Shown: in pieces, positions 596 to 63,092 of the stretch
Layout of the letters: every line of letters starts with the position of its first letter
How positions within the stretch are numbered: position 1 is the first letter of the stretch
Assembly: GCA_002172675.1 (NCBI GenBank)
Contig: NETF01000032.1
Coordinates: forward strand, 1-64,000
Source of the DNA: an unicellular cyanobacterium SU3
Lineage (GTDB): Bacteria; Cyanobacteriota; Cyanobacteriia; Cyanobacteriales; Microcystaceae
Reading direction: 5' to 3'
DNA: 64,000 bases
Translations under genes and position numbers: made by a program
Notes under the pieces: model-generated
The model's database searches: none
Told to the model about the DNA's origin: nothing
Seen by the model: only the letters and a program-made list of their open reading frames with translations

Positions 596-1591
596 TTACT
601 TTTCTTTTAACCAACTAAACATAGCCCGTAAATCTTTACCGACTTTTTCAATGGGGTGTTCAGCTTCTTGACGACGCATCGCGGTAAACCCTGGTTTACC
701 GGATTGATTTTCTAAAACAAATTCCCGAGCAAATTGACCGGATTGAATTTCGCTAAGAACTTGTTTCATTTCGGCGCGAGTTTCATCGGTGACGATACGA
801 GGTCCTCTGGTTAAGTCTCCATATTCTGCGGTATTGGAAATACTATCGCGCATTTTAGCCAGTCCACCCTCTACGATCAAATCCACAATTAATTTGACTT
901 CGTGGAGACATTCAAAATAAGCTAATTCAGGCTGATAACCGGCTGCGACGAGGGTTTCAAACCCTGACTTAATGAGTGCCGATAAACCGCCACAGAGTAC
1001 CACCTGTTCCCCAAATAAATCCGTTTCTGTTTCTTCTCTGAAGCTAGTTTCAAGAATACCGGCGCGAGTTCCTCCGATGCCTTTTGCATAGGCCATAGCG
1101 CGATCGCGGGCTTGTCCACTGGCATCTTGATAAACGGCGAATAAACAGGGAACCCCTTCCCCTTGTTCATAGGTACGACGCACTAAATGGCCCGGTCCTT
1201 TTGGGGCAACCATTACCACGTCTACGGTTTTGGGGGGAACAATTTGACCAAAGTGAATGTTAAAGCCATGAGCAAAGGATAAAACCTTGCCCTCTCTCAA
1301 ATTGGGTTGGATTTCTTCTTGATAGACTGTTTTTTGAACTTCATCAGGCAACAAAATCATGATCCAATCAGCAGCACTGGCTGCATCGGCGACACTAAGA
1401 ACTTTTAGCCCTGCTTCTTCAGCTTGTTTTCTTGATTTGCTGCCTGGATACAGCCCCACTACCACATTGATGCCACTGTCTTTTAAATTAAGGGCGTGGG
1501 CATGACCTTGAGAACCATAACCAATAATGGCCACGGTTCTATCTGCTAATAAATCAAGGTTGGCATCTGCATCGTAATACATCCGAGCCAT
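596..1591 (-). CDS. ilvC: Ketol-acid reductoisomerase (NADP+)
   Basis: IlvC converts acetolactate or acetohydroxybutyrate to the dihydroxy acid in valine, leucine and isoleucine synthesis, with NADPH and Mg2+, in the cytoplasm. The 331 residues match the short class I form. The Rossmann loop [15 protein letters not shown] is at 22-36, the NADPH phosphate loop (PGSKSR) near 50, the GPGHLVRR block near 132, and the metal-binding region [11 protein letters not shown] near 186-196. The start is ATG at 1591. It is last in a minus-strand series after accB with a 123-nt gap, and is followed at once by a group II intron. The protein looks intact. Confidence 0.97.
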
Positions 1592-1714
1592 GAGGCTGTC
1601 TCCTAACTTTCTTACAAACTTTCCATTATATAATCTATAGGCCCTGGGGTGCGGATTTCGGGATTTTGTAATCTTTCTTTTGTCTTTGAGAATGAGAGGA
1701 CTTTTGTCTTGCCA

Positions 1715-2185
1715 TTAACTTGGATTAACCCACATTAAAGTTTGACCATATTCTACCGGTTCGCCGTTGGCTACTGCAATCTCCATCACTTCTCCTGTGA
1801 CTTCAGCTTCAATTTCATTCATCAATTTCATCGCTTCGATAATACAGACGGTTTGAGTATTACTGACGCGATCGCCCACGTCTACAAAGGGGGGTTCATC
1901 GGGGGCAGGGGCGCGATAAAAGGTTCCTACCATCGGGGAGGTAATAGCTACCCATTTTTTTTCGGCTGGAGACGGGGGGGTTTCTGGGGGTGGAGTCGGT
2001 GGGGCAGGGGTTGACGAAGGTGGGGCTACGGTTTCGGAGGCTATGGGGGCTACGGTTTGAATTTTGGTGGTAGCGTCTCGACGAACATTTAACTCAAAGG
2101 TTTCTGTTTTTAGGCTAACTTCGGCAATATCGGTGTGAGCGATCGCCCCTAATAAATCTCGTAGTTCATTAAAATTAATTGACAC
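1715..2185 (-). CDS. accB: Biotin carboxyl carrier protein of acetyl-CoA carboxylase
   Basis: AccB carries the biotin that moves CO2 from biotin carboxylase (AccC) to the carboxyltransferase (AccAD) in the first step of fatty-acid synthesis. The 156 residues hold an N-terminal helix region (1-40), a Pro/Ala/Thr-rich flexible linker (about 46-75), and a C-terminal biotinyl domain (79-156). The biotinylation site is EAMKLM, with Lys120 as the modified residue. The start codon is GTG at 2185. It follows efp on the same strand with a 65-nt gap; the efp-accB pairing is common in cyanobacteria. Confidence 0.96.
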   Translation of the reverse strand: MSINFNELRDLLGAIAHTDIAEVSLKTETFELNVRRDATTKIQTVAPIASETVAPPSSTPAPPTPPPETPPSPAEKKWVAITSPMVGTFYRAPAPDEPPFVDVGDRVSNTQTVCIIEAMKLMNEIEAEVTGEVMEIAVANGEPVEYGQTLMWVNPS

Positions 2186-2219
2186 AGATTATCTATCCCA
2201 TAATCGTTGATCAAACAGA

Positions 2220-2241
2220 GGTTGTCTCCCTAGGGACAACC
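2220..2241 (-). other. Hairpin between efp and accB
   Basis: GGTTGTC and GACAACC arms (2220-2226 and 2235-2241) with a short inner stem form a stable hairpin in the gap between the efp stop and the accB start. There is no clear T-tract after it on the minus strand, so it may be a processing or attenuation site and not a full terminator. Confidence 0.4.
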
Positions 2242-2250
2242 GTTCGGGCT

Positions 2251-2811
2251 TTAAGTTTCTCGTCCTAAATAGGAACCATCACGGGTATCGACTTTAATTT
2301 TTTCCCCAATGGAGATAAACAGAGGAACCATGACTTGCGCCCCGGTTTCGACAATAGCGGGTTTGGTTCCGCCGGTTGCGGTATCCCCTTTTACTCCTGG
2401 ATCGGTGTCGGTTACTTCTAAAATAACTGAGGTTGGTAGTTGTACCTCTAAGACTGTATCGTTCCAGAAGAGAACATCGGCTTCCATTTCTTCTTTGATA
2501 TAGTTTACCGTTGTTCCCATTTGTTCAGGGCTTAAACGCACTTCTTCGTATGTTTCCATATCCATAAAGACGTATTGTTCCCCTTCTTTATAGGTATGTT
2601 GCATGGTGCGTTTTTCTAAAGTTGCTTGAGGAACGGTTTCCCCTGCGCGAAAAGTGCGCTCAACTACACTACCCGTCTGAGCATTTTTTAGTTTGGTTCG
2701 CACAAAAGCTGAACCTTTCCCCGGTTTGACGTGCAGGAATTCAACGACGCGCCATACTGAACCATCTAATTCAATGCTGGTACCAGTCCGAAAATCGTTA
2801 CTAGAAATCAT
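2251..2811 (-). CDS. efp: Translation elongation factor P
   Basis: EF-P binds ribosomes stalled on polyproline stretches and stimulates peptide-bond formation. The 186-residue length is standard for the three-domain protein. Domain I carries the tip loop KPGKGSAF at 29-36, with Lys32 at the position modified in many bacteria. The C-terminal part contains the OB-fold signature [19 protein letters not shown] near 142-160. ATG at 2811 is the start. It lies upstream of accB on the same strand. Polyproline proteins nearby include AccB itself, with its Pro-rich linker. Confidence 0.97.
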
Positions 2812-2896
2812 GAAAGGCTTTTAGAGCTTAGAAAGTCAAGATTTATTTTACAAGAGTTTGGCAACCCTGAGGTTAATTACCTCATATCTATTAACA

Positions 2897-3820
2897 TTAT
2901 CGAGACACCCTGGCGACGATCGCCCGATGACGGGGACTAATAGGAGTGATTTTAGGCGGTTCAAACCCTGCTTCAATTAGGGCTGTTTCTACATCTAAGG
3001 CAAAATATTGATCGAGGTAGGGTTCGGTACTTTTGAGTAAGGTTAAGATGTAGGGGGGCATTTTTTGGTAGGCTTCAGCGCGGGGGTTCATGTCCATTAG
3101 GGTGAAGTATCCCCCAGGTTTAAGGAGGCGACGAGCTTCTTTAAAAATAGCGATCGCTGCTGTTTGGGGGAGTTCGTGGTACAACAAAAAGGCTGACACG
3201 AGATCAAAGGAGGTTTCGGGTAAGTGGGTGGCTTCGGCAGCCCCGTGTACCCAGTTAATGGGTAGGTTTCGTTCTTGGCTTCGATATTGTGCAACAGCTA
3301 AATGATAGGCGGATAGGTCTAATCCTGTTACTTTTGCGTTGGGGTAGCGTTCTTGTAGGGGAAAGGTACTCATTCCTACGCTACAGCCGATATCTAAAAT
3401 AGCTTGAGGGTTTAAGGATAGTTGTTGTTGAAGAATGGAATGATAATTCTCTCGTAAACGGGGATCACCTTTAACGCCAGCGGATGGCCAAATGCTGGCA
3501 TGAACTGCATAAGCAGCAGATTCTACTTCTAAGGCAGATTCCCAACTTAAGTTTCCTGTCTCATAACCATGAAAGGAGCAAACATAATAGTCAGGATAAA
3601 TAAGGTTAGGATTTTCAACTTTTGCTAATTCTTCTTTCCAGTTATGTGCTTGCAGTTGACGGACATTGTCTCGCCAGGGAACCCCTATTTTTTCTGCACG
3701 ATTAATAATCATGTTTCGAGCTTGATATTTGGCTAGTTTAGCTAGGGGTTTGATGGATAAGATTCCATTGATGAGACGGGAGGCTAAACTGGGTTGGGAT
3801 TTATAGGAGGTAACAGTCAT
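2897..3820 (-). CDS. Class I SAM-dependent methyltransferase
   Basis: The C-terminal half is a methyltransferase fold: motif I ILDIGCSVGM at 141-150, an acidic end to strand 2 (GLDLS) near 165, motif II-like TSFDLVSAFLLYHELP near 203-218, and post-motif LLKPGGYFTLMDMNPR near 235-250. The N-terminal 130 residues (with a YPDYYVCSFHGYETGNLSW block) are conserved in cyanobacterial relatives but of unknown role. The arrangement resembles UbiE/menaquinone-type enzymes, but the substrate cannot be told from sequence. It precedes efp with an 85-nt gap and may share its transcript. Confidence 0.85.
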   Translation of the reverse strand: MTVTSYKSQPSLASRLINGILSIKPLAKLAKYQARNMIINRAEKIGVPWRDNVRQLQAHNWKEELAKVENPNLIYPDYYVCSFHGYETGNLSWESALEVESAAYAVHASIWPSAGVKGDPRLRENYHSILQQQLSLNPQAILDIGCSVGMSTFPLQERYPNAKVTGLDLSAYHLAVAQYRSQERNLPINWVHGAAEATHLPETSFDLVSAFLLYHELPQTAAIAIFKEARRLLKPGGYFTLMDMNPRAEAYQKMPPYILTLLKSTEPYLDQYFALDVETALIEAGFEPPKITPISPRHRAIVARVSR

Positions 3821-49130: not shown

Positions 49131-50573
49131 TTATTTCGTCAGTTCTACAAGAATGATGGCATCGTCAAACTTAGCCGGATCAGCTTGTGGTGCGAGTACA
49201 CCATCAGTTGCAAACTCAACAAAATAGAGAACTTGATTATCAGCAAGGGAGAAGTAGTAAGTAGAGCCATCAGAAGTTTCTTTAATTAAGTTTTTTGTCT
49301 TTAATTTATTAATGACACTGGTATATGCTGAGTTGGAGAGGTCATCATTAATTATAGAACTGAGGGTTGAATAGGCGCTGTCGTTGCTGGTAAATTTAAC
49401 CTTTCCAGTTTGATTAACCGTGACTGTAAGTGTAGATGAGTCATGGCTACAACTGCTTATCTCTTTAATTTGCGTTAGTACATCCACTGGTGGGTCGCCA
49501 TCTGGTACAGTAAAATCTACTACAGATCCTGACGCTTCTCCCGTAGCTGTTCCAACGCTACTGCCTGATTTATCGAAAGAGGTTTCAACATCTTGGCTAG
49601 TATTGCTAGGATCACCTTGGCAGGGTATGTTGGCATGAATAACATTCAATTTTGCCTTACCACTTTCTTTTAATTTAATCACCTGTCCATTGACCGAAAA
49701 ATCAGGTACTCCTTCTCCACCACTACCAATAACTTTAGAACGAGCATGAACCATGGTAGCGACATTGTACTCCATTTTGTCGGCGTAACGGGATTTGCCT
49801 TCTAAAATGTCATTTTTACCGTAGCCTAAATGCGCGAATTCATCCAAACTTGTACCAACAACATTCAATTGAACTAATTGTTTATCTTCTTGGACACAAA
49901 CAAAAAACCCTTTTACCTCTGCTTCTTTTTGGGGGAGACGATACCATTCCTTTCCTTGGTTATCGGTAGCAATATAAGTATTAGGATCTACCGTATTAGG
50001 GGGCAAATTTTGGCATTGTTTTTGGTTAGTATCTAAATTTGTTACCATCATATCTACAAGGGCGTTACTCCGCCATCCATCAGGGTTTTTGGTATTCCGT
50101 ACCCCGTCGTCTGGTTTTTTGTATTCTCCATCTTCTTTAAAATCTGGTCCAAAACGTCGAATTACCGCCGAACCGCGCCAAATGTCATCACTAGCCACTT
50201 CATCAACATAATAAACAACTCGTTCATAAACCCCATCGATTTTCAAAGCCAAAATAGGAATTTTGGGATTAGCTTTTCCTTCAACATATTTTTCGTAAAA
50301 GGTTGGAGCAACATTATAAATTTCTGCTTGGTCGGTTTCAATGGTTTTAGCACTACGAATTTCTTCTGAGATAAATTCGGCTGCCCTATTCATGTCATAT
50401 TGCATTTGGCCTGTCGCATTGGCCACTTTATTTTCTCGTAAAATTGTCACTAAACCGAATCCTGCAACCATAATAACCACAAGAGTCATCGCGGCAGCAA
50501 TCATTAATTCGGCTAACGTCCAACCAGCAGAAGGACGATATTTTTGTAAAAGTTTTAAATAGATTTTTAACAT
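49131..50573 (-). CDS. Pseudopilin, HpsC/PilW-like
   Basis: A 480-residue protein with a type IV prepilin leader: the cut site is G|WTLAELMIAAAMTLVVIMVA, with Glu at +5. A long hydrophobic helix and a large beta-rich C-terminal domain follow, with Cys in SSCSH. It matches HpsC of the hormogonium polysaccharide/minor-pilin loci (like Synechocystis slr2017-type). ATG 50573 is chosen; TTG 50606 overlaps the previous gene. It would sit in the inner membrane as a minor pilin of a T4P-like apparatus. Confidence 0.75.
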   Translation of the reverse strand: MLKIYLKLLQKYRPSAGWTLAELMIAAAMTLVVIMVAGFGLVTILRENKVANATGQMQYDMNRAAEFISEEIRSAKTIETDQAEIYNVAPTFYEKYVEGKANPKIPILALKIDGVYERVVYYVDEVASDDIWRGSAVIRRFGPDFKEDGEYKKPDDGVRNTKNPDGWRSNALVDMMVTNLDTNQKQCQNLPPNTVDPNTYIATDNQGKEWYRLPQKEAEVKGFFVCVQEDKQLVQLNVVGTSLDEFAHLGYGKNDILEGKSRYADKMEYNVATMVHARSKVIGSGGEGVPDFSVNGQVIKLKESGKAKLNVIHANIPCQGDPSNTSQDVETSFDKSGSSVGTATGEASGSVVDFTVPDGDPPVDVLTQIKEISSCSHDSSTLTVTVNQTGKVKFTSNDSAYSTLSSIINDDLSNSAYTSVINKLKTKNLIKETSDGSTYYFSLADNQVLYFVEFATDGVLAPQADPAKFDDAIILVELTK

Positions 50574-50581
50574 AATTTTTC

Positions 50582-51193
50582 TTAAATATCTGTTATTTTT
50601 TTGCAATTAGCATCGCCGTCCAGTGATCCAGAAGTATCTCCTGTGTAAATTCCGGTTCTCATAATACCTAGTCCATCACTAATAACGAGACATCTTTTTT
50701 CTCCTGTTCCTTGTGATGGTTCAACAACAATAGTTCCCCTATTGATTGTGTTACCTTTAAAAGAAAAAGCAATTTCATTACTACTTAAATTACTTTTGAC
50801 GACAATATTTTTAGGTAATTCTCGTTCAACTGAGCCTAAACACCCTTTATTTGTGGCAGCAGTAGGATCTTTAATATCGACAGTGGGGGGATCAGCATCC
50901 TTATCAATGACAATGGTGCATTGTTTAGAGTTACGGATAGCTTGTTTTTGGGCATCTTGCAGGGCTAGTTGAATTTGATCAATTCCTTGTTTAACTTGAT
51001 CGCCTTGTAACATTCCCATCAAGCTAGGAGTGCCGATCGCAGCTAAGATGCCAGTAATTACAGCAGCAATGATGACTTCTAGGAGGGTAACGCCTTGGTT
51101 TGGATTAGGGTGAGAAACCGCACTCAGCAACAGCGGCCGGAATAACCTCGGTGTAATTTTCGGCGATGATTGATGTGTTTCCGGATTCGTCAT
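50582..51193 (-). CDS. FimT/GspH-like pseudopilin
   Basis: The product has the prepilin motif NQG|VTLLEVIIAAVITGILA and a GspH/FimT-type C-terminal domain (QGDQVKQGIDQIQLALQDAQ, KQAIRNSKQ). The start is uncertain: ATG 51193 gives a leader of about 35 residues but overlaps the hpsB-like gene by 89 bp; GTG 51295 is unlikely, and a TTG near the leader is possible. FimT proteins help DNA uptake and pilus assembly; here it is the middle of a three-pseudopilin run. Confidence 0.72.
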   Translation of the reverse strand: MTNPETHQSSPKITPRLFRPLLLSAVSHPNPNQGVTLLEVIIAAVITGILAAIGTPSLMGMLQGDQVKQGIDQIQLALQDAQKQAIRNSKQCTIVIDKDADPPTVDIKDPTAATNKGCLGSVERELPKNIVVKSNLSSNEIAFSFKGNTINRGTIVVEPSQGTGEKRCLVISDGLGIMRTGIYTGDTSGSLDGDANCKKITDI

Positions 51194-51860
51194 CGCGTAG
51201 TTGGTCGCTGTCGTCATCTGATTGGTTGGGATCGGTGGGTTCATAGGGTTCTCCGACTCGGTAATAAACTTGTAGAACTTGGTGTGATGTGGCACTATCG
51301 ACGGTCATGATTCGTACAAGACGATAGTCTTTATTGATAAGACTTTCGCTATCACGAACAATTTGAACGATCGCTCTTTTGCCATTAAATTCAATGGTTG
51401 AACTCTCTGAAGTAAATACCTGATTAGGATCAATGGCTGGATCAGATTTAGTACCAGTATCGGTATCTTTTTTTAACCAATGGTCCAATTCTCTAACCAA
51501 ATAAGCCCCAAAACGGACATCTTCCATATTTAAAGAAGAAGGATCACACACGGTTGATTCATCCGTAGTATCGACAGGGTGAGGATCTTCCGCATTACCT
51601 TCCCACTTTTTGAGATGGTCGAGATTCATGTTACTAGCCGTAGCTTGTAATTTTTCAACATCTTGTTGAATGATAAAGTTGGCTTGGGCTTGTCTTTCTG
51701 ATTTAACTCGCATGACAGCATTAATGGTCATCGCTTGTAGGGTTCCCATCAAGAAAGCGGAGGACACTAAAATAGCGATGGTAACTTCAAAGAGACTAAA
51801 CCCTTGATCACTTTTTGGTTTTGAGCGACTCAGTATGAGAGTTAATAGTAGTTTGTTCAT
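51105..51860 (-). CDS. Pseudopilin, HpsB/PilV-like
   Basis: A 251-residue prepilin with leader KPKSDQG|FSLFEVTIAILVSSAFLMG, then a polar, Asp-rich domain (DLDHLKKWEGN, YRVGEPYEPTDPNQSDDDSD). It resembles HpsB/PilV of cyanobacterial minor-pilin operons. It is the first of three pseudopilin genes downstream of two HpsA-like genes on the same strand. Its end overlaps the FimT-like gene. The variable, Ser/Asp-rich tail suggests a surface-facing domain. Confidence 0.75.
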   Translation of the reverse strand: MNKLLLTLILSRSKPKSDQGFSLFEVTIAILVSSAFLMGTLQAMTINAVMRVKSERQAQANFIIQQDVEKLQATASNMNLDHLKKWEGNAEDPHPVDTTDESTVCDPSSLNMEDVRFGAYLVRELDHWLKKDTDTGTKSDPAIDPNQVFTSESSTIEFNGKRAIVQIVRDSESLINKDYRLVRIMTVDSATSHQVLQVYYRVGEPYEPTDPNQSDDDSDQLRDDESGNTSIIAENYTEVIPAAVAECGFSP

Positions 51861-52281
51861 GGTATTAACGTCAGCTCTGGTGAAGCTTCTGAGTGGATGT
51901 TTTAGATAACAAAGGAGGGGTAGGCACAGATTCTCACCTTAAGTTTTCCCATTTTTCGGTTGAAATTATCGTTGTGCTGGTTGTTTGACAGCTACTTTTC
52001 ACTTAAATAGACAAATTTTTTAAGTAAAAAAACAAAGGGGACGTTGAAGATTTTTATAGAAAAAATCTCCGATATCTTCCCCCTCCCCTTTTTTTCCAAG
52101 TCTTCTGGGACTAAAGCAATAGCGACTCAACTGAAAAACCTGATAAAAAGCACAGGATTTACTGTTTGACTATTTGCTTCTTTAAAGCGTCCCTTTGAAC
52201 TATTTTTTTCCTTCGCGGTCAATCCGTGTCCCTAGCTTATTATGGGGTACAAATCAAGTCTTTAAGAGGTTGATTCGCTGC
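51861..52281 (-). other. Intergenic region between HpsA-like 2 and pseudopilins
   Basis: 421 bp without a supported gene. A hairpin at about 52048-52068 (AGATTTTT / AAAAATCT) is followed by CT-rich and T-rich tracts on the plus strand, and could be a weak terminator or processing site. The gap is larger than expected inside one operon, so the pseudopilins may have their own promoter here. Confidence 0.4.
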
Positions 52282-53970
52282 TTAGTGATATTGTTTGGTT
52301 TTGACACTAGCAGGCTGTCCAATGGTCATAGGTGGTATAACATCTGGTGTTTCAAGTCCTAGATCTGACCATTCTCCAGTTTGTACGACATGAGCACCAG
52401 AACTACTGTTAGAGCTACAGTTTGTATCCCAGTTGTTGACAAAAGCTGTGCCATTAAGACCTCCTTTTCCATCCCCTGTTCCAGCAACTCCCAGACCCGC
52501 TAAGGGAGACCAGAGAAATGTATGGAGTTTTTTGTTTCCGTTTAAACAAACAGAGGTGGTGGTGTGTCCCCAAATCTGGAAATCCACTGGCTTACAATCA
52601 CCAGTACAATCAGGAGTATCTTTTATTTTTGCAATGCTACTTAGGTCTTCATTACCAACATGGGCGATCTCAGCATTTTTGTCGATATTACCGTGAAGAT
52701 GGAAAATGACTCGCTGACGCTTACCGTTTGCATCAAGGGTTCTAGCCACAATCCCTAAATTTTTGAGGTCTTTGGTAATCTCATAATCATAAACACAGAT
52801 GGTTTGGCCATCAGGGGTGGTTTCGGTGCGACTGGCTGTATCACCAGGTCGAGGAAAAACATTCAAATCGGTCCCATTAAGGGTGCTTGATACTTGGGGT
52901 CCGCAACTAGAGGTAGAGGCAACTGCGGCCTTACCAAACAGATGATTAAAGCCTTTATCGAAAACGCCATTCATCCATTTTGCAACGGTGGGTAAGGGAT
53001 TATAAGCTGTGGTGCTACTGCCTCCTATCTTATTAATATTCTTTACAAGAGCAGTATCGATATTAACGGGAGTAACACCAGCAGCCGTAATCTTTTCGGC
53101 GTATGTTTGATCTAATTTTGTCTTATCAGGGAACTTGTGTGCTGCCACTATAGGTGCTTTAAAAGTTGTTCCTGCGGAAAGTTCTCCATCTGTGATTGCT
53201 TCGTTTAAACCTCCTGTAACTAATGTATTAATTTCAGTGATCTTAGTGTCGTTATCGCTGATGCTACAATCATCGCCACCACTACCAATCCAGACATGGG
53301 CAGCAACGATATCATCTACACCACTGGCTTTTTCAACCCATAACCCTGGGCTATCTTGGATATCGGGAGGGGTTTCGCTAAGGGGTATTTTGACAACTAA
53401 TTTAGTGGGGGCTTCTTTTAAGTCATTACCTACATTAGCCTTTGCTTCAATGGTTAATTCTCCCATTTTTTGTCCAGCGATCGCTGGTTGATAATCTGTG
53501 AATCTGAATTGCCCTTTATCAGGATTGGATGGGTCCATCTGTAACCATTGGTATTCTGTACTGTTTGTTGCAACGTACTGACCAATTTCCCCTTTGCTTT
53601 CTTGAACTTTGGCGTTAAGTTGTGTCTCTGTTAAACTTTGACCGTCACAAGTAGTTTTAATTTTTGTTTTGATTTGAGATTCTACGTCTGCACTCTGCCA
53701 ATCGTTGAGAGGTTTTTCTGCCAAAAAGGGATATTTCCCAAGAAGATATTGTATTCTGGCAACGGCAACTCCTGCAGTCCCTTGGCCTTGAGTCGTGGCT
53801 GCTTGAACACCTACTTTTTCGGTTTCGCTACTACTTCTGACTAACATGGCAACTCCTGTCGCTGCCATAATCACCCCGGCAATTAAAACAAATCCCATAG
53901 CAAAACCTTTGTTGTTTCTATGGGAGAAACGAGAGAGAAATAAAAAAGTCTCTGTATATCTTTTATTCAT
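52282..53970 (-). CDS. HpsA-like surface protein, copy 2
   Basis: A 562-residue HpsA-family protein. An N-terminal prepilin-like helix (NKGFAMGFVLIAGVIMAATG) leads into an SSSETEKV...QYLLGKYPFLAEKPLNDW block, and then a beta-rich region with conserved IWVGSGGDDCS and GHTTTSVCLNGNKKLH. HpsA and the Synechocystis slr2018-type proteins act in motility and polysaccharide secretion with minor pilins. It is a paralogue of the gene at 54631 and has a homologous upstream region. ATG 53970 is the start. Confidence 0.8.
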   Translation of the reverse strand: MNKRYTETFLFLSRFSHRNNKGFAMGFVLIAGVIMAATGVAMLVRSSSETEKVGVQAATTQGQGTAGVAVARIQYLLGKYPFLAEKPLNDWQSADVESQIKTKIKTTCDGQSLTETQLNAKVQESKGEIGQYVATNSTEYQWLQMDPSNPDKGQFRFTDYQPAIAGQKMGELTIEAKANVGNDLKEAPTKLVVKIPLSETPPDIQDSPGLWVEKASGVDDIVAAHVWIGSGGDDCSISDNDTKITEINTLVTGGLNEAITDGELSAGTTFKAPIVAAHKFPDKTKLDQTYAEKITAAGVTPVNIDTALVKNINKIGGSSTTAYNPLPTVAKWMNGVFDKGFNHLFGKAAVASTSSCGPQVSSTLNGTDLNVFPRPGDTASRTETTPDGQTICVYDYEITKDLKNLGIVARTLDANGKRQRVIFHLHGNIDKNAEIAHVGNEDLSSIAKIKDTPDCTGDCKPVDFQIWGHTTTSVCLNGNKKLHTFLWSPLAGLGVAGTGDGKGGLNGTAFVNNWDTNCSSNSSSGAHVVQTGEWSDLGLETPDVIPPMTIGQPASVKTKQYH

Positions 53971-54275
53971 GATTTTCGTCCTAACATGATTATTAAATAT
54001 TGGTAGTGTTTAGCACCAACTACAACAATATAGATCCAGTTTTGATCCCCTGGATTTGTCGGTTATTATGGAAAATGCAGTGACAAATAGCAGTGATTTA
54101 ATGGGGATCATTCAGTGATATTGATCACTTCTCTATTATTACCGCTAATTTATTAAATAAAAACAGTAAGATTAAGGATTTTTTAGCGTATAATATTCAG
54201 TAAATTTTGCCTAAAAAATTTCGATTAATTTAAGTTTAAGTATTAAATAAGTAATATTACTGAGAATATCTAGCC
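53971..54275 (-). promoter_or_regulatory. Upstream region of HpsA-like 2 (duplicated)
   Basis: About 285 bp are clearly homologous to 56389-56690 before the other copy. Shared blocks include GTGATATTG.TCACTTCTCTATTATT, AATAAAAACAGTAA, and a 19-nt exact block ATAATATTCAGTAAATTTT (plus strand 54190-54208), which on the coding strand reads AAAATTTACTGAATATTAT. It lies 220 bp from the start in both genes, a likely promoter or operator. Confidence 0.6.
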
Positions 54276-54630
54276 GAAAATAAACGTTACGGTTAAGACG
54301 AAACAGGAATACAGTTACACAGGTTTGTTTGCAAATATTTATAGCAGTACGAAAATAGATGAGGACATTTTTTGTATCTTTTCATTATCATTCCGAAAGA
54401 ATAAGACATCTCATAAAAGTCTTAATCAGAATGCGTAGTGCTATAGTTGATTGTGTTTCTGTCCGACTACTTAAATATCCCTTTATTTTAGACAAAATAC
54501 TACTGTAGAGACGTTTGATGAACGTCTCTACAAAAGGGGGTATTAAAACAGGATTTTTTATGACGATCTTGTTGAAAAAAATTTAACTCCGAACTAGCGA
54601 TGATCAATCAACCACTGATTCGCGATCGCT
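54276..54630. repeat. Intergenic region with a perfect 12-bp inverted repeat
   Basis: This stretch of 355 bp between the two HpsA-like genes contains TGTAGAGACGTT (54504-54515) paired exactly with AACGTCTCTACA (54521-54532) around a TGATG loop. It resembles small mobile or regulatory palindromes in cyanobacteria. It lies about 500 bp upstream of the HpsA-like 2 start, so a role as terminator of HpsA-like 1 is also possible. No gene is seen. Confidence 0.55.
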
Positions 54631-56388
54631 TTATTGATATTGTTCAGTTTTGACACTAGCAGGTTGTCCAACAGTTAGAGGTGGTGTAGCATCTGGTGTT
54701 TCGAGTCCAAGGTCTAACCATTCTCCAGTTTGTACTACGTGTGCGCCACTTTTAGCATCTGAGCTACAGCTTTCATTCCAAGTATTAACGAAGGCAGTGC
54801 CGTTAAGACCTCCTTTTCCATTGCCTGATCCCTTGACTCCCATATCAGCTTGGGGGGCCCAAAGGAAAGCATGAAGTTTTTTGTTTCCGTTTAGACACAC
54901 AGAGGTAGTAGTATGTCCCCAAACTTGAAAATCTACAGGCTTACAGGAACTGGTACAGTCAGGAACATCTTTAATTTTTGAGGTAGGTTTATTGGGACCA
55001 GTTGTTACAGTGGGATTACCAAGATCGTTATTGCCAATATGAGCAATTTCTGTATTATTCCCAATATTTCCTTCAAGGTGAAAAATGACTCGTTGACGAT
55101 TTCCTTCTGCATTAACTGTTCTGACTACAATCCCCATACCACCTAAGTCTTTGGTAATCTTATAATCATAAATACACAGAGTCCTACCATCGTCCATGAT
55201 TTGGGTACGAGTGGCAGTATCACCAGGTCGAGGAAAAACATAAAAACCTGAGCCATTTTTATTAGCTAATACCTGAGTTCCACAACCAGAGGTAGAAGCA
55301 ACTGCAGCACGACCAAATATATTATTTAAGGCGTTCTGCCCAAATCCATTCATAAATCTTGCAAAAGTGGATAAGGGGTTATGAGATTTCTTTTCTGGAT
55401 ATCCACCCAAAGCATCAGAATTACTCAAAAGATCACTACTAATATCAATAGGAGTGACACCAGCATCAGTGATTTGTTGAGCGTATGTTTCACTTAACAC
55501 CGTTTCATCAGGAAACTTATGTTCAGCGACTTGGGTAGGCTTAAAATTAGGATCTGCTAGAAGTTCTCCATCTCGAATGGCTTCGCTGATACCTCCTCCG
55601 TTTCGATGATCAGTAACTGGATAGTCTGCTATATTACCAAAAACTTTCGTATTAATTGCAGCAACCTGATCTGCATCATCAGTTACACTACAATCATCGC
55701 CACCACTCCCAATCCAGACATTGGCAGCAACAATATCATCTAAACCACTACCGTTTTTAACCCATAACCCAGGACTTGCTGCTGCATCAATCTCCGCATT
55801 ATTTTCATTGAGGGGTATTGTGACAGTTAATTTACTGGGAGCTTCTTTTAAGTCGTTACCTACATTTGCCTTCGCTTCGATGGTTAATGTAGCCATCTTT
55901 TCCCCTGCTATGGCTGGATCAAACGCTACAAATCTAAACTTACCTTCGTTAGAATTAGAGGGATTCATCTCTAACCATTGATATTCCCCACTACTTTTTT
56001 GAATATAACCACCAATTTCATTTGTACTAGCTGTAACTTTTGCGTCTATCTCTGAATCCTCTACACAACTATTTTCTAGTTGTTCTCTTATTTCGGATGT
56101 GACATCTGCGTTTTGCCAATTATCCATCGGCATTTCTGCTAAAAAGGGATATTTCCCTAAGAGATATTGCATTCTAGAAATGGCAACCTCTGCGACGGTT
56201 TTACCTTTGGCAGTGGCTTCTTGAGCTACTATTTTTTCTGTTTCGCTGCTACTTTTGAGTAACATGACGGCTCCAGTACCTGCCATGAGAACTCCGACAC
56301 ATAAAACAAATCCTAAAGCAAATCCTTTGTTGCTTCTACGGGAAAGGCGAGAAAGAAACAAAAAAGTTTCTGTGTATCTGGTATTCAT
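54631..56388 (-). CDS. HpsA-like surface protein, copy 1
   Basis: A 585-residue paralogue of the gene at 52282, about two thirds identical in many stretches. The N-terminal helix is NKGFALGFVLCVGVLMAGTG, followed by SSSETEKI and QYLLGKYPFLAEMPMDNW. Later blocks are IWVGSGGDDCS, QVLANKNGSGFYVFPRPGD, GHTTTSVCLNGNKKLH, and a C-terminal DATPPLTVGQPASVKTEQYQ. Its 23 extra residues lie in insertions near 250-275. It is first in a minus-strand hps-like series. Confidence 0.8.
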   Translation of the reverse strand: MNTRYTETFLFLSRLSRRSNKGFALGFVLCVGVLMAGTGAVMLLKSSSETEKIVAQEATAKGKTVAEVAISRMQYLLGKYPFLAEMPMDNWQNADVTSEIREQLENSCVEDSEIDAKVTASTNEIGGYIQKSSGEYQWLEMNPSNSNEGKFRFVAFDPAIAGEKMATLTIEAKANVGNDLKEAPSKLTVTIPLNENNAEIDAAASPGLWVKNGSGLDDIVAANVWIGSGGDDCSVTDDADQVAAINTKVFGNIADYPVTDHRNGGGISEAIRDGELLADPNFKPTQVAEHKFPDETVLSETYAQQITDAGVTPIDISSDLLSNSDALGGYPEKKSHNPLSTFARFMNGFGQNALNNIFGRAAVASTSGCGTQVLANKNGSGFYVFPRPGDTATRTQIMDDGRTLCIYDYKITKDLGGMGIVVRTVNAEGNRQRVIFHLEGNIGNNTEIAHIGNNDLGNPTVTTGPNKPTSKIKDVPDCTSSCKPVDFQVWGHTTTSVCLNGNKKLHAFLWAPQADMGVKGSGNGKGGLNGTAFVNTWNESCSSDAKSGAHVVQTGEWLDLGLETPDATPPLTVGQPASVKTEQYQ

Positions 56389-56690
56389 AATGTTCGTCCT
56401 AAAGTTACTATAAAATATTGGTAGTATTCAGCATCAACTACGACAATATAGAGCTAGTTTTTACCCCCTAGCTCTGGTGCTTATTATCAAAGAGTTAGTC
56501 ACCAATAGCAGTGATTGAATGGGGATAATTTAGTGATATTGGTCACTTCTCTATTATTCCTGTGAATCTATCAAATAAAAACAGTAAAATCAAGGATTTT
56601 TGACTCTATAATATTCAGTAAATTTTGTATAAAAAATATTGATTAAGTTAAATTTAGGTATTGACTACGTAATCTTACTGAGATTACTTG
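56389..56690 (-). promoter_or_regulatory. Upstream region of HpsA-like 1 (duplicated)
   Basis: Homologous to 53971-54275, with the 19-nt identical block at 56608-56626, again 220 bp from the start codon. Such conservation of a non-coding stretch in two copies points to a functional promoter or binding site. The -10-like TATTAT sits inside the block on the minus strand. Confidence 0.6.
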
Positions 56691-56970: not shown

Positions 56971-58641
56971 TTAGTTAGAGGTACGATTAAGACGTTTTTG
57001 CCAGTTTATTTTTGCTTCTTGTGCTATTGGATAGACTTGAGTGTCATTTGGTACTAATTCGATGGTTTCAATGGCTAAAATCAATTGTCCTTGTTGCGCC
57101 CTGATTTGAGCTAATTGATAAATAGTTTTACTTAATTGTTCAATTAATTTTCGGGCATGATGATAGCCTAATTCTTGTTTATCTAAGTGTTTTAAAAGTC
57201 TAATGGCTCGATTATAAGATGATGCTTGGTTGGGTTCAATTAAAGATAGTGCAGCTTCAATTAAAACTTGATTATCTTGTTGTTTTTGACTGAGATGTTG
57301 CCATTCTTTTAAAGATTGTTGTGCTAAATTATAGAGTTGTTGGTTATCGGGAGGAACCAATTTGACGGCTGCGATCGCTGCTTGAAAATCCCCTATGATA
57401 GCCCTTCCTTGAGCTATATCTACGATCATTTGACTCCATTGACTAATTTTGTCCTGAGCTTGCTGATACAGGGCTGTATGGGGCTGTATTTGTCGAGCAT
57501 AGTTAATAGCTTCATTCAACTGTGATGCTTGCTGCACACTTAAAGAGATTTTGCCATAGTCTAAAATTTGTTGATTTTCCTGTATTTTTTGGTAATTAAT
57601 AGTAGTAAGATGTTGACGGATTTTTAGAGACATCCACCACAAAATGAATATTGCTCCTATTATTCCACATATCCATAATAAGTATTTTTTTATAGGTGAC
57701 TTTTGTGGAGTTTGAGTCGTTCTTTTTGACGTTGAAAAGACAGAAGATACAGCAGGAGAAATCGGTTGATTGTTAGTTTCTGTTGGAGGGATATTTAATG
57801 ATAGTTGGGGGTTAAAAGAGGGTTGTGGAACTTTGGGTAAAATGAGAGTGTTTGTAGCGGTTTGAATCGGTTTTTGTGGGATTTTAAAAGATAGATTTTT
57901 ATTTTCTTGAGTTTGTACTACTTGCTTTTCAGATGAAGGTAGTAAGGGTTTATGACGAACTTTTTCAGGACTAATAATAATGGGAAGAGCGATGGCTGGA
58001 AATTTTTTTTGATGGGAAGGATTTAATCTTTCTTTTAAGTAAGAGTCTAGCTTATGAAGGGTTAAATGATGACTATAGTAGCGCAAAGCTTCAGTTAAAG
58101 CACTCATAAAAATACTTTTTTCTGCACTAATACTTTGATAAACATGGGAACGACAGGAAAAAATTAAAGAAATATCTTTTTTTTGAGCTAAATCTAATGT
58201 CATCTGACCTAGTTTACCATCTTTTAAAGGGTTTTGTAGGTCTAAAATAATTAGTAAGTTTTGGCTATTATATTGTAATTTTTCAAAAAGCGATCGCACT
58301 TTTATTGCTGTTTGGGGAATACTGTTTAAGCTACTATCAATAGGTAGTAAATAGTCTTCTCCTTGATAATTAATACTATATCCTTGAAAGAAAAACCAAC
58401 AATATTCAACTTTAATTAAACTATCATTAATCCATTGCAAAATGTTATCTCTGTTAGGATAAGTTGAGCGTTTTCCTGGGGAGGGGGAGGTATCAGTTAA
58501 TAATAATAATTGATGAGATGGGATATTAACTTCTTCAAAGAAATAGCGATAAAGTGCTTGTGCGCTATTTTCAGATCCCGTTAAGGGTTGATAATGTAAA
58601 TAGTTTTCTATTCCGATACTTATAGCACGAAAATTATTCAT
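56971..58641 (-). CDS. Caspase-fold protein with substituted catalytic dyad
   Basis: The N-terminal 220 residues follow the peptidase C14/orthocaspase layout: MNNFRAISIGIENYLHY, LTDTSPSPGKRSTYPNRDNI, WFFFQGYSINYQGEDYLLPI, and LLIILDLQNPLKDGKLGQMT. The usual GHG (catalytic His) reads GYS, and the usual DxCxS (catalytic Cys) reads DLQNP, so the protein looks inactive. A transmembrane helix (LLWICGIIGAIFILWWM near 325) and a C-terminal domain with three repeated A..I..V..D.Q.Y..A segments follow. It may bind partners as a pseudo-enzyme. Confidence 0.72.
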   Translation of the reverse strand: MNNFRAISIGIENYLHYQPLTGSENSAQALYRYFFEEVNIPSHQLLLLTDTSPSPGKRSTYPNRDNILQWINDSLIKVEYCWFFFQGYSINYQGEDYLLPIDSSLNSIPQTAIKVRSLFEKLQYNSQNLLIILDLQNPLKDGKLGQMTLDLAQKKDISLIFSCRSHVYQSISAEKSIFMSALTEALRYYSHHLTLHKLDSYLKERLNPSHQKKFPAIALPIIISPEKVRHKPLLPSSEKQVVQTQENKNLSFKIPQKPIQTATNTLILPKVPQPSFNPQLSLNIPPTETNNQPISPAVSSVFSTSKRTTQTPQKSPIKKYLLWICGIIGAIFILWWMSLKIRQHLTTINYQKIQENQQILDYGKISLSVQQASQLNEAINYARQIQPHTALYQQAQDKISQWSQMIVDIAQGRAIIGDFQAAIAAVKLVPPDNQQLYNLAQQSLKEWQHLSQKQQDNQVLIEAALSLIEPNQASSYNRAIRLLKHLDKQELGYHHARKLIEQLSKTIYQLAQIRAQQGQLILAIETIELVPNDTQVYPIAQEAKINWQKRLNRTSN

Positions 58642-58824: not shown

Positions 58825-59385
58825 TTAATTATTTTTAGTCCATTCTTCTGGTTGTCTGTCTACTGCATACTGAAAGTTTTTCGGAACTAAATTAATGGTA
58901 ATTTCTTCTGATGATGAGGAAGGGGGATCAATTTGAGCATATAAAAATTCTCCTTGAAAATTTGGCTTCCCTAAAATTATTTTATGTTGTTTATTATTAT
59001 CAAGTTCAATCGTAATTATTCCTAATGGTTTATCTAAACCGTACTCTTTTTTCTCATTTTTAGGAACAGTTAAACTTCTTTCACTTTCATTAGTAACTAA
59101 CAGATTAGTCAAAAAAGAAATAACTGCATCATTAGCTACTGTATTTTTAGGTGTTTTCATTTGCCACGGTTGATTTTCATCAGTGGTTTTCTCAAATTTA
59201 TAGGTTTGATCTTCGGTTTCAATTGTTAACGCTTTAATTTCGTTTTCATCAAAGGTAAATAGTTGTTTATTTGTTGCTTCAATTTGTTCTTGTTGGGGAT
59301 TGATTTGTAATTCATAAATATAAACACCAACCCCTAGAATGATGGCAATTCCTAATAAAATCCATGTTGTGTTTTTTAACTTCAT
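58825..59385 (-). CDS. DUF4340 domain protein
   Basis: A protein of about 186 residues with an N-terminal transmembrane helix (NTTWILLGIAIILGVGVYIY) and an extracytoplasmic DUF4340 domain: FDENEIKALTIETEDQTYKF, TPKNTVANDAVISFLTNLL, EYGLDKPLGIITIEL, and KIILGKPNFQGEFLYAQI. ATG 59385 is chosen; GTG 59424 overlaps the previous gene. DUF4340 proteins regularly accompany GldG-like ABC systems, as here, 23 nt after gldG. Confidence 0.85.
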   Translation of the reverse strand: MKLKNTTWILLGIAIILGVGVYIYELQINPQQEQIEATNKQLFTFDENEIKALTIETEDQTYKFEKTTDENQPWQMKTPKNTVANDAVISFLTNLLVTNESERSLTVPKNEKKEYGLDKPLGIITIELDNNKQHKIILGKPNFQGEFLYAQIDPPSSSSEEITINLVPKNFQYAVDRQPEEWTKNN

Positions 59386-59408
59386 GATTAACCTATTAAT
59401 TATTAATT

Positions 59409-61286
59409 TTATCTTCTTCGCCACCAGGTGATTCCAGCAGCAATTAAACCTAATAAGGGAAATACAGCTAATGACAATATAGTGATTATATTAGCTTGTG
59501 AAGGAGATAAGTTAAGTCTTCTATCTTTTGCTTCTCTAGGACGAATTGATAAAGGTTGTTCATCTTGATTACTTAACCATTGTACAGAGTTCAAAAAGAC
59601 ATCTCCATTTAATTGTTGATTAAATAAACTATCAGTAGCAAAGGTTGAATTACCAATAACAACTAAACGAGATTCTATTGTTTCTTGTTCAGCATTACTA
59701 TTTTGCTCATTCTCAGAAGCGTTAGAAGTATTTTCTTCTTGTTCAGAATTGTTACTATTTTCTGTTTCCTCTGTGTTTAAATCAGATTGATTATTGATAG
59801 TGTTGTTATTTTCTTCACTTTGGTTATTCTCTTGTTTTTGTTCAGGGTTATTATTATCTTCTGTTTCTTCTTTGTTTAAATCAGATTGATTATTAACAGT
59901 GTTATTATTTTCGTCAGTGTTGTTTTTCTCTGGTTCATTATTTTCTAAACTTTCTTGGTTATCTTGTGCGTTTGTATTATCTTCTTTTGTCTGATTATTG
60001 ACAGTTTGTTTATCAATGGTACGGGTTAAAGCAACCCCTAAATCAAAAGGTCCGGGAATATCTTCTTCAGGATCAAAAATAACTTCTTCTGATTCTAAAT
60101 TACTTTCGGCCCACATTTGTTCGCTGGTGACTAATAAAGAGGTTGCTTCGACATTTTCTACTTCAACCGTATCAACGGGACGAGATATGGGATAAAAAGA
60201 AATACTATTGGCAAACTCTTCTGTAATCGGATGGTTTCCGTAGTTGGTAATAAAGGGAGTTGTGGGTCCTAAACCGACGACATTTCCTGACCCTGAACCA
60301 TCTATAATGATACGATTATCTAGTTGAATTCCCCAGTCTTCTAAGATAGTTTCTAATCCTGCATCTGCGTTAGGATCTAATAGTAAAAATAAGTTCCCCC
60401 CTTGTTGAGAATATTTTTGTAATGTTGCTACTTCTTGGTCAAATAATTCCCGTTTGGGACTAGCAATAATAATGACATCTGCATCATCAGGAATACCAGC
60501 ATTTTCTATTAGGTTTAAGGGTTTTACTTCATACCCTTTACTTTCAAGACTATTGGTTGCTTCTGATAAACTTCCTTCAGGAGAGGGTTCTAATGAATAT
60601 TCTCCATGGCCTTGTAAAATATAAACCCTTGGAATGTAGTCTTTTTTGATTTTTTCAATTGCATTGGTTAACTTTATTTCTGATAAGGGTTCTTTTTGGT
60701 TGAAAACGATCAGGGTTTGAACTAATTGTTTTTTATCTCCATATTCTAGGTAGACATCCCCTAATGATTGAACATTAAACTGTTGCGTGAGTCCAACTTT
60801 TATATCAGGATCGACTAATTCAAATTCAAAGTTATCATTGTAACGTTGATAGTTTTCTAATAAGTCTTCATCTTGGGGAGTTATTTCTTTATCGAAAACA
60901 TAGACTTTAGTCGGTTTATCGAGATTTTTAACAATTTCTTGAGTTTCTGGGGATAAGGTATATAGTTGGTTTTCGGTTAAATCAATACGGGGAGAATAAC
61001 GAACGGCAATAAAATTAATCAATCCCAATATAACAACTAAAGATAAAACTGAAACAAACGCATTTGTTCCTGTTTGGGTTGATCTTTTTTGCCAAAAACT
61101 TCTCCCTGTTATTAAGAGATAAAGTAACCAGATAAATAAGCAAATACCTCCGACAATCACTAAACTGAGATAAAGAATACTCAGAGTTTTAGTGATAAAA
61201 ATCGGGACTAAACCCGCAACAGTTAGAATTAGTCCAGGAATAAATAAATATTTGAGAATTATTTTATAATTACTTATTTTTTTCAT
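59409..61286 (-). CDS. GldG-like component of an ABC transporter, with Asn/Gln-rich insert
   Basis: A 625-residue membrane protein. Three N-terminal transmembrane helices lead to an extracytoplasmic IFT52/GldG-like domain: PRVYILQGHGEYSLEPSPEG, ADVIIIASPKRELFDQEV, and GGNLFLLLDPNADAGLETIL. A C-terminal helix ends AGITWWRRR. Residues about 424-535 are an Asn/Gln/Glu-rich insert with 33-residue repeats. GldG partners with GldF and GldA in gliding bacteria; in cyanobacteria the role is not known. It overlaps nothing and lies 13 nt after the permease gene. Confidence 0.85.
   Translation of the reverse strand: MKKISNYKIILKYLFIPGLILTVAGLVPIFITKTLSILYLSLVIVGGICLFIWLLYLLITGRSFWQKRSTQTGTNAFVSVLSLVVILGLINFIAVRYSPRIDLTENQLYTLSPETQEIVKNLDKPTKVYVFDKEITPQDEDLLENYQRYNDNFEFELVDPDIKVGLTQQFNVQSLGDVYLEYGDKKQLVQTLIVFNQKEPLSEIKLTNAIEKIKKDYIPRVYILQGHGEYSLEPSPEGSLSEATNSLESKGYEVKPLNLIENAGIPDDADVIIIASPKRELFDQEVATLQKYSQQGGNLFLLLDPNADAGLETILEDWGIQLDNRIIIDGSGSGNVVGLGPTTPFITNYGNHPITEEFANSISFYPISRPVDTVEVENVEATSLLVTSEQMWAESNLESEEVIFDPEEDIPGPFDLGVALTRTIDKQTVNNQTKEDNTNAQDNQESLENNEPEKNNTDENNNTVNNQSDLNKEETEDNNNPEQKQENNQSEENNNTINNQSDLNTEETENSNNSEQEENTSNASENEQNSNAEQETIESRLVVIGNSTFATDSLFNQQLNGDVFLNSVQWLSNQDEQPLSIRPREAKDRRLNLSPSQANIITILSLAVFPLLGLIAAGITWWRRR
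59740..59960 (-). repeat. Tandem repeat coding for the GldG insert
   Basis: Within gldG, a 99-bp unit (33 codons) is repeated with the shared block TTTAAATCAGATTGATTATT starting at 59776 and 59875. It codes for NNQSDLNKEETEDNNNPEQ-like units. The Asn/Gln/Glu bias resembles prion-like or flexible linkers. Unequal crossing-over could change copy number. Confidence 0.8.
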
Positions 61287-61299
61287 GTTTTATAATCGT

Positions 61300-62085
61300 T
61301 TAAGAACGTTGATAACGTAATGCTTCTATTGATTGTGCGGTCAAGAAAATCCCTAATAAAATATAACTGGCAAATAAGACTAAACTACTAATATCTAAAA
61401 CTCCTCTGACTAAATCAGTGTAACGATCAAAGAGAGAAAGATAGGATAAAATACTTTTAAAAGGGTCTTGTAAATTAGCAGCGATCACATCCATAATCCA
61501 TAAAAATAATATTAAAATAAAGGTCAATATATAAGCTAAAATTCCACTATCCGTTAGAGAAGAAATGAACATTCCCAAAGAAAGAATAGCCGTAGCAACT
61601 AAAATTAATGATCCATGAGATAACAAAATAATGTTTAAATTAACTGGAGGACTCGCATTACTAAAGATAATAATTTCATAAATCCAAAAGGGTATCATTA
61701 ACACAATAAAAAAGGCTAAAACCCCTAACAATTTTCCTATGGCAACCACCCAGTTAGTGACGGGAGAAGTTGCTAATAACTCTAAGGTTCCTCGTTTTCT
61801 TTCCTCGGAATATAATCCCATGGACAAAGCAGGTAATAAGACTAATAAAAGAGAAATAATTACCCCAAAAAAACTATCGATAAATTGACTAGGAACATCT
61901 ACAGGAGTGGATAACTGACCACTTTGCTCTAAAAACGAGAGAGTTTGTAAAATTTCTTCTAAAATGGCACTAAAAAAGAAGCCACCAATTAACCAGAAAA
62001 CAGCAGCAATAATATAAGCAAACGGAGATGTAAAATAACTTTGAAATTCTTTGCGAAAAATAGCAGTTAAATTTGTTAGTATCAT
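61300..62085 (-). CDS. ABC transporter permease, GldF-like
   Basis: A 261-residue ABC-2-type permease with six hydrophobic segments. It starts TAIFRKEFQSYFTSPFAYII and contains LYSEERKRGTLELLATSPVT near 93-112, the hallmark of this ABC-2 family, then ILLSHGSLILVATAILSLGM and a C-terminal helix. It pairs with the ATPase at 62097 (12-nt gap) and the GldG protein after it. The substrate is unknown. Confidence 0.9.
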   Translation of the reverse strand: MILTNLTAIFRKEFQSYFTSPFAYIIAAVFWLIGGFFFSAILEEILQTLSFLEQSGQLSTPVDVPSQFIDSFFGVIISLLLVLLPALSMGLYSEERKRGTLELLATSPVTNWVVAIGKLLGVLAFFIVLMIPFWIYEIIIFSNASPPVNLNIILLSHGSLILVATAILSLGMFISSLTDSGILAYILTFILILFLWIMDVIAANLQDPFKSILSYLSLFDRYTDLVRGVLDISSLVLFASYILLGIFLTAQSIEALRYQRS

Positions 62086-62096
62086 CTCAAAAATAA

Positions 62097-63092
62097 TTAT
62101 AAAGTTTGTTCAGTGTTAGCCGTTTCTAAGGGGTTTTCTTCTGGTGTTTCTATTGATGATTCTTCAGTAATTACATTTAAGAAAACATCTTCTAGAGTTG
62201 CACGAGTTCGTTTCATTTCATATAAGTCTAATCCTTGATTAATAATTAAAGCAGCAATATCTTTTCCTATTTCTTGATTCGAGTCTGTGGTCAACAATAA
62301 AAGATGACGTTTTGTTTGACTATTGGATTTAATTTCTAATTGAGTTATACCAGGAATATCTTTTAATATTGGTTCTAAAGTGAAGATATCCCCTTCTATT
62401 TCGATTTCATAACCTCCTTTTGCTGTTAAATGAGACATTAAGTTATCAGGGGTATCTGTTGCTACGACTTTACCCCCATTGATGATAGTAACGCGATCGC
62501 AAGTCATACTGACTTCTGGTAAGATATGAGTCGATAAGAGGATGGTATGTTCTCCTGCTAAACTTTTAATCAGGTTGCGTACTTCAATAATTTGTTTAGG
62601 ATCAAGTCCCACTGTCGGTTCGTCTAAAATGATAACAGGGGGATCATGAACAATGGCTTGAGCGATACCGACTCGTTGTTTATAACCCTTAGATAGCTTA
62701 CGGATCAAAACTTTGCGCTTATCTTCAAGTTGACAGCGTTCTATGGACCAATTTACCCTAGAATTGCGATCGCCTGATGGAACTCCTTTAATTCTGGCCA
62801 CGAACTTCAAAAACCCTTCTACTGTCATATCAGGGTAAAGGGGAGGGGTTTCGGGAAGATAACCGATATTTTTTCTGACTTTTAGGGACTGTTCATGAAC
62901 ATCGTACCCTGCTACTTTAGCAGTTCCGGCCGTAGCAGGAATATAACCGCTTAAAATACGCATGGTGGTGGTTTTTCCTGCACCATTTGGCCCTAAAAAT
63001 CCGAGAATTTCTCCTTTTTCTACGGAAAAATCCACATCTTCAATGGCTACAGTTGACCCATAAATTTTACTTAAGTGTTCGACTTCAATCAT
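62097..63092 (-). CDS. ABC transporter ATPase, GldA-like
   Basis: A 331-residue ATPase. Walker A GFLGPNGAGKTTTMRIL lies near 32-48, the signature LSKGYKQRVGIAQAI near 136-150, Walker B PPVIILDEPTVGLDP near 153-167, and the switch His in LLSTHILPE. The C-terminal extension (RATLEDVFLNVITEES and a Glu-rich tail) is usual for ABC-2 importer/exporter ATPases of the GldA/YhaQ class. First in the gld-like minus-strand set. Confidence 0.93.
   Translation of the reverse strand: MIEVEHLSKIYGSTVAIEDVDFSVEKGEILGFLGPNGAGKTTTMRILSGYIPATAGTAKVAGYDVHEQSLKVRKNIGYLPETPPLYPDMTVEGFLKFVARIKGVPSGDRNSRVNWSIERCQLEDKRKVLIRKLSKGYKQRVGIAQAIVHDPPVIILDEPTVGLDPKQIIEVRNLIKSLAGEHTILLSTHILPEVSMTCDRVTIINGGKVVATDTPDNLMSHLTAKGGYEIEIEGDIFTLEPILKDIPGITQLEIKSNSQTKRHLLLLTTDSNQEIGKDIAALIINQGLDLYEMKRTRATLEDVFLNVITEESSIETPEENPLETANTEQTL

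Follow-up and report, generated by a model that had tools for sequence, protein, structure and literature searches.

In a 64-kb stretch of DNA from the unicellular, nitrogen-fixing cyanobacterium Crocosphaera (assembly GCA_002172675.1, contig NETF01000032.1, positions 1-64,000; this whole stretch is the window, and its numbering is used throughout), we have analyzed a cassette of genes for pilin-like proteins and the promoters of its first two members. In the direction of transcription, the order is gene B, gene A, then a PilV-like, a GspH-like and a PilW-like gene (Table 1). The cassette, an A/B-type gene with the PilV-, GspH- and PilW-like genes, is also found in relatives from the genus, family and order; within their own genome, A and B are the sole two matches, with no third relative. 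A sequence-only reading that preceded this work had described a gene pair with three pseudopilins in what appeared to be a unicellular genome. The open reading frames (ORFs) and the prepilin-type N-termini of the three downstream genes agree with that inventory, and Crocosphaera as the source agrees with the unicellular origin.

Table 1. Genes and promoter features of the cassette, in window coordinates (aa, amino acids).
Feature	Coordinates	Strand	Remarks
Gene B, PilX/ComZ-like minor pilin, upstream copy, 585 aa	54631..56388	-	intact ORF
Gene A, second PilX/ComZ-like copy, 562 aa	52282..53970	-	intact ORF; 60-63% identity to B
PilV-like minor pilin, 251 aa	51105..51860	-	prepilin motif GFSLFEV; weak PilV/PRK10557/N_methyl matches
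GspH/ComGD-like minor pilin, 237-aa ORF	50582..51295	-	N_methyl and TIGR02532 above cut-off
PilW/HpsC-like minor pilin, 479 aa from conserved MLKIY start	49131..50570	-	weak HpsC and ComGF matches
X2 3' end relic, between gene A and PilV-like gene	51875..51988	-	blastn and tblastn
CRP-type site 1, gene B, AGTGACCAATATCACT, at -159	56532..56547	-	
CRP-type site 1, gene A, AGTGATCAATATCACT, at -159	54114..54129	-	
Degenerate second CRP site, gene B, right half TCACT kept	56510..56525	-	22 bp downstream of site 1
Degenerate second CRP site, gene A	54092..54107	-	22 bp downstream of site 1
Putative -10 box GATAAT, gene B	56483..56488	-	59 bp from start of site 1
Putative -10 box CATAAT, gene A	54065..54070	-	59 bp from start of site 1
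AGGAATAAT, like extended -10 / J-box (GGGaAtacT), gene B	56553..56561	-	just upstream of site 1; putative role
GGTAATAAT, equivalent position before gene A	54135..54143	-	just upstream of site 1
21-nt identical block, gene B copy	56607..56627	-	sequence; conservation unremarkable
21-nt identical block, gene A copy	54189..54209	-	sequence; conservation unremarkable

The two large proteins are minor pilins of the PilX/GspK class, with a predicted ComZ-like solenoid. A prepilin-type leader, with NKGFALGFVLCVGVLMAGTGAVMLL following a basic stretch, and a long hydrophobic N-terminal helix fit this class, as does the grouping of the genes with those for PilV/GspI-, GspH- and PilW/GspJ-like minor pilins. 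In a structure model of the gene B protein (predicted local distance difference test score, pLDDT, 73), a long N-terminal helix (residues 23-79) is followed by sheets, and residues 202-558 match the solenoids of ice-binding proteins (VIA-align Z 11-12 over ~188 residues). Compared with the competence pilin ComZ (PDB 6qvi), the model aligns with VIA-align Z 11.3 over 329 residues at 13 A root-mean-square deviation, and the next group reaches Z 4.3; as modeled, an ice-binding-type solenoid sits in a pilin domain. ComZ itself combines a GspK-like pilin domain with such a solenoid, binds DNA and has been placed at the pilus tip on structural grounds (PMC6561018). By the same argument from the size of the inserted domain, the A and B proteins are predicted to be located at the tip. 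No solved structure is similar by sequence. DUF7305 was found in 28 of 34 homologues, PilX_N in two, GspK in one and an ice-binding-like adhesive domain in a single member; the A and B proteins themselves match neither the PilX_N nor the GspK model.

The earlier reading had called the pair HpsA-like and suggested a role in motility or polysaccharide release. The name fits the N-terminal helix (~70 residues) but not the remaining protein. The curated HpsA model (NCBIfam NF038301, cut-off 400 bits) does not match A or B and finds nothing at E<=1 across this genome, although in a sample of 59 genomes from the class it scores above its cut-off in 37. In profile comparison (hhalign) with twelve HpsA proteins, the match covers residues 3-72 only, the pilin-type helix (87%, E 4e-6), and the C-terminal part has a probability of 0.2%; of 34 homologues of A and B, 4 match HpsA, with an E-value of 4.7e-5 at best. 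HpsA identity beyond the helix was rejected on the model and profile comparisons. One could still picture an HpsA/HpsB-D-type system in which the three pseudopilins work with the pair to export a polysaccharide for motility, like that of hormogonia in filamentous cyanobacteria: the PilW-like protein and all 13 of its homologues match HpsC weakly (4e-11 at best; the protein here scores 31.9 bits against a cut-off of 200), and A/B-type proteins and HpsA have in common the N-terminal helix and a position before pseudopilins. We regard this as quite unlikely, given the unmatched HpsA model, the ending of the likeness at the helix and the difference in size (562-585 aa against 1500-3000 for HpsA). 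No glycosyltransferase gene adjoins the locus among the neighboring genes; because of this, and because HpsA is not matched beyond the helix, polysaccharide release is not our leading reading. A role in a type IV pilus is likely, with PilT family genes present in the genome.

A different protein shares more with HpsA. In a Synechocystis-like genome, the Slr2018-type protein (L087:4216-6576; the slr2015-2019 locus was located through a published primer) has the HpsA body domain in common with HpsA (hhalign 92%, E 7e-7), and thus the relative of HpsA is the pilA9-slr2019 system and not the A/B genes. This suggests, from sequence comparison, that hps and pilA9-slr2019 are related systems.

Before both A and B lies a palindrome of the type bound by the cyclic AMP (cAMP) receptor protein (CRP), AGTGA-N6-TCACT, at -159. 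The window has just two occurrences of its core, GTGA-N6-TCAC, one ahead of each gene and equally placed, and both sites match TGTGAN6TCACA at 8 of 10 positions, including the complete GTGA/TCAC core. The site does not stand alone. All nine of the nine Crocosphaera promoters have a second TCAC 22-23 bp downstream and a -10-like box 59-60 bp from the start of site 1, and this spacing is constant although insertions shift the module away from the ATG in some of them, the leader in between varying from ~159 to 312 nt; in other genera the second site is likewise 22-23 bp downstream. A second site near -41.5 of the presumptive start corresponds to a class II-like arrangement. Placement of site 1 alone as a class I site had been considered and was dropped once the second half-site was seen. 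Cyanobacterial CRP sites in the literature read TGTGA-N6-TCACA, and the one published for sycrp1 has exactly the form AGTGA-N6-TCACT (PMC2633013).

To follow the site across the protein family, we gathered 37 homologues, some from Crocosphaera and some from further genera in its family and order; five genera are represented, and the upstream regions are not alignable. The GTGA-N6-TCAC core lies within 300 bp of the start in 25 of the 37, compared with 2 of 188 other genes of the same loci (Fisher p about 6e-22, relatedness not corrected for). The genes lacking it are mostly second cassette genes and stand-alone PilX1-type genes, together with those of G003, G010, G016, G034 and G037 (G numbers denote genomes). 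One homologue, in G062, carries the exact published slr0442 site, TGTGATCCAGATCACA (PMC2633013). Slr0442 has been named minor pilin PilX2 and listed as controlled by LexA or SyCRP1/2 (PMC12313861). No genome matched the pattern of the pilA9 CRP site as published, and a genome-wide site scan here returned no further obvious pilus gene.

The candidate regulator, an SyCRP1-type protein, is encoded in this genome at G000:C110:122046-122759 and is 67-72% identical to its counterparts in the Synechocystis-like genus, with the pocket and RETVTR motifs retained. Of 18 genomes examined, 16 have a regulator of this type with GEM..EE..RS and RETVTR, which we take to be the cAMP-pocket and recognition-helix residues of Escherichia coli CRP. 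The remaining two, G003 and G016, have neither the regulator nor an intact site; the G003 assembly is 79% complete, so the absence there may be an assembly gap.

As a separate observation, G003 (L042) and G016 (L049), which lack the regulator, have degraded CRP-type sites before their PilX-like genes; regulator and site may have been lost jointly in these genomes.

Other CRP-family genes are also encoded in this genome, and the palindrome could instead be the operator of one of those regulators (of the CRP/FNR family) or of a repressor. In this alternative, an upstream group 3 sigma promoter, GTTTTT-N15-GGGAATAAT, would start at the palindrome and be blocked there. Site 1 does have a GGGAATAAT-like element directly on its upstream side, one that Crocosphaera, G010 and G016 all conserve (GGGAATAAT itself is found at the corresponding element in G001, G003, G010 and G016); it resembles the SigJ J-box, whose consensus is GGGaAtacT (PMC6495340), and a start 10 bp past it would land in the palindrome. 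Even so, the sites of the homologues are near-perfect TGTGA-N6-TCACA, one of them is the known slr0442 site, and the second site and the -10 box at 59-60 bp suit activation. We find a different regulator doubtful, although conceivable. The element could also mark a second start that CRP itself would block, which is the main rival inside the scheme of activation by CRP.

The sequence-only reading had located the control element elsewhere, in a 19-nt identical block exactly 220 bp from each start, within homologous upstream regions. The homology is real, since the regions upstream of A and B align over ~310-320 bp at 78% identity, but the block is 21 nt long (TATAATATTCAGTAAATTTTG on the plus strand) and begins 219 bp from each ATG. 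Its length is ordinary: in a run-length shuffle test at 78% identity, the mean longest run was 18.4 and P(>=21) was 0.26. In an alignment of 8-9 Crocosphaera upstream regions, its pairwise identity of 0.59-0.62 falls below the promoter mean of 0.65, and the best-conserved stretches are the window around AATAATAGAGAAGTGACCAATATCAC (0.83) and TCACTG (0.96-0.97). The most conserved part of the promoter is at the GTGA-N6-TCAC palindrome, ~60 bp closer to the gene. By the run-length test and the genus-wide conservation together, the block was ruled out as the key control element. The broader idea, that promoter and gene were duplicated together and that selection has maintained the promoter, survives: over the ~310-bp alignment the two promoters diverge by 22%, compared with 52% at the synonymous sites of the same two genes, which supports selection on the whole promoter.

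The duplication is old. Between A and B, the synonymous divergence (dS) is about 0.90, near saturation, and the ratio of nonsynonymous to synonymous divergence (dN/dS) is about 0.28, with both frames intact; these values indicate that both copies are under purifying selection. The tree tentatively places A immediately outside the clade that B forms with its orthologues (B/G006/G003/G004), with support 92/65. One copy might nevertheless be a decaying leftover with no separate role, its shared promoter dating from a recent duplication, and tandem duplicates do recur in the family (G020, G012). With a near-saturated dS, the constraint on dN, the intact frames and the branching of A outside the B group, we consider a decaying copy very improbable.

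What A replaced can be seen in the DNA that follows it. In G004, G006 and G016, the cassette is X1-X2-V-H-W, where X2 is an older paralogue with no CRP site. A remnant of the X2 3' end is still detectable in the stretch separating A from the PilV-like gene, by blastn against the loci of G008 (E 4e-16), G004 and G006 (8e-12 and 1e-8) and by tblastn (46% over 37 aa, with 0 of 200 shuffles equally good). A therefore now fills the slot of X2. In G012, two copies each have a CRP-type site, and together with the tandem genes of G020, each with its own site, they indicate that the pattern recurs.

Two observations elsewhere in the family bear on these events. An X2 relic is also kept in G008 (L044, about 2436-2549), between X1 and the PilV-like gene; judged from these remnants, loss of X2 seems recurrent. 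G020, probably a Synechocystis relative, has two near-identical tandem PilX-like genes (L093:5568-9426), each with its own CRP-type site; here the duplication has happened again, recently and independently.

We consider it probable that A and B encode pilus-tip adhesins controlled by cAMP-CRP, serving attachment, aggregation, twitching or DNA capture; here CRP binding and function are what we infer. The locus would be a minor-pilin cassette of a type IV pilus whose first gene was duplicated along with its promoter, and each tip-pilin gene would most likely be switched on by the SyCRP1 orthologue. CRP would sit on AGTGA-N6-TCACT and on the weaker tandem half-site 22 bp downstream, the latter centered near -41.5, making a class II-like promoter whose -10 box is ~95-100 bp upstream of the ATG. 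After cleavage by prepilin peptidase, the products would be assembled with the three minor pilins into a tip complex, in which the outward-facing solenoid may act as an adhesin or receptor for surfaces, neighboring cells or DNA. The second copy appears to have taken over the slot of X2 before the three pilins; given that position, it is probably A that drives the three minor pilins, with B probably transcribed as a separate unit. The cell could in this way have two alternative tip proteins under one signal.

Several points pull the other way. The homologues are related, which makes 25/37 against 2/188 look like more independent evidence than it is. No site precedes the stand-alone PilX1-type genes, and G010 has the CRP gene but only an altered palindrome, CGGGATTGAGATCCCA. 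The flanks of the sites here are A...T where the consensus has T...A, although the published sycrp1 site shares this form, and there are 13 similar sites genome-wide (3 for the reversed control), several of them inside genes. On the structural side, the model of B is of medium confidence only, its alignment with ComZ does not describe a single rigid body, and a Foldseek search of the PDB gave no significant match for it.

Among the closest known systems is Synechocystis PilX2 (Slr0442), a predicted SyCRP1/2 target of the same family as the homologues in G062, G064 and G061 (called Slr0442 by site and size, not by the 6803 sequence), with a CRP-type site upstream. In those genomes the gene stands alone, whereas the present locus has a tandem pair, each copy with a site of its own, ahead of three minor pilins. 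ComZ of Thermus thermophilus resembles the A/B model in its pilin domain with a large inserted ice-binding-type solenoid and in belonging to a minor-pilin cluster, but has no detectable sequence similarity to A or B and comes from a different phylum. The Synechocystis pilA9-slr2019 operon, required for motility and flocculation and reported to be under SyCRP1 control, likewise combines GspH-, PilV- and PilW-like pilins with a large pilin-like protein; the order there is H-V-W-large-ABC (ABC, ATP-binding cassette; L087) rather than X-V-H-W, and the Slr2018-type large protein matches HpsA instead of A/B. In hpsA-D of Nostoc punctiforme, a large protein with a like N-terminal helix precedes three pseudopilins, and HpsC is weakly related to the PilW-like protein; HpsA, however, is far larger and unrelated past the helix, control is by SigJ/SigF and not through a CRP-type site, and the HPS glycosyltransferases are not found next to the locus here. 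GspK and PilX, of type II secretion and type IV pili, are of the same class, tip-forming minor (pseudo)pilins with an inserted domain; the inserted domain of A/B differs, and A and B miss the PilX_N/GspK models, which do match a few homologues.

Minor pilins were already known, as were SyCRP1 control over them in Synechocystis and tip pilins of the ComZ type. New, at the level of sequence and model, are a CRP site tied to ComZ-like tip pilins throughout the family, the geometry of the tandem sites and, in Crocosphaera, a duplicated pair in which each gene has its promoter. A 2025 review (PMC12288463) listed as open questions the make-up of the cyanobacterial tip complex and the way in which different minor pilins define what the pilus does. 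The predicted fold and the common regulator site in five genera define a candidate tip-receptor family, reducing the question to two paralogues, a single transcription factor and one site of 16 bp; attachment or movement of the cells is probably linked to a cAMP signal in this way. A bolder version, which we offer as a doubtful speculation, is that the ComZ-like tip-receptor family of unicellular cyanobacteria keeps a private tandem-site cAMP-CRP promoter wherever it is duplicated. The Crocosphaera promoter would then overlap a sigma-J/F-type start, with cAMP switching between the two promoters and thereby between the two tip proteins (B by itself, A together with the minor pilins), and so altering what the pilus takes hold of.

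The three downstream genes have some further features. The PilW-like gene is kept in relatives, where the PilV-like gene is in the conserved cassette order; the PilW-like ORF has an alternative end coordinate (49131-50570/50606). The PilV-like and GspH-like ORFs overlap by <=190 nt in different frames (51105-51295), and the overlap recurs in the full-cassette Crocosphaera loci. The true start of the 237-aa GspH-like ORF is probably internal, and the 3' end of the PilV-like gene probably includes the sequence for its leader.

Around the cassette, one neighboring ORF is presumably a family-57-type glycosidase, judging from its sequence type. A gene with a caspase domain (Peptidase_C14) lies directly upstream of B (56971-58641) and has a homologue in the same place in G002, G004 and G006. 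Upstream of the cassette (58825-63092) are genes for DUF4340-like and GldG-like proteins, an ABC permease and an ABC ATPase, a set that we take to resemble a GldA/F/G-type transporter; it recurs beside the cassette in other Crocosphaera.

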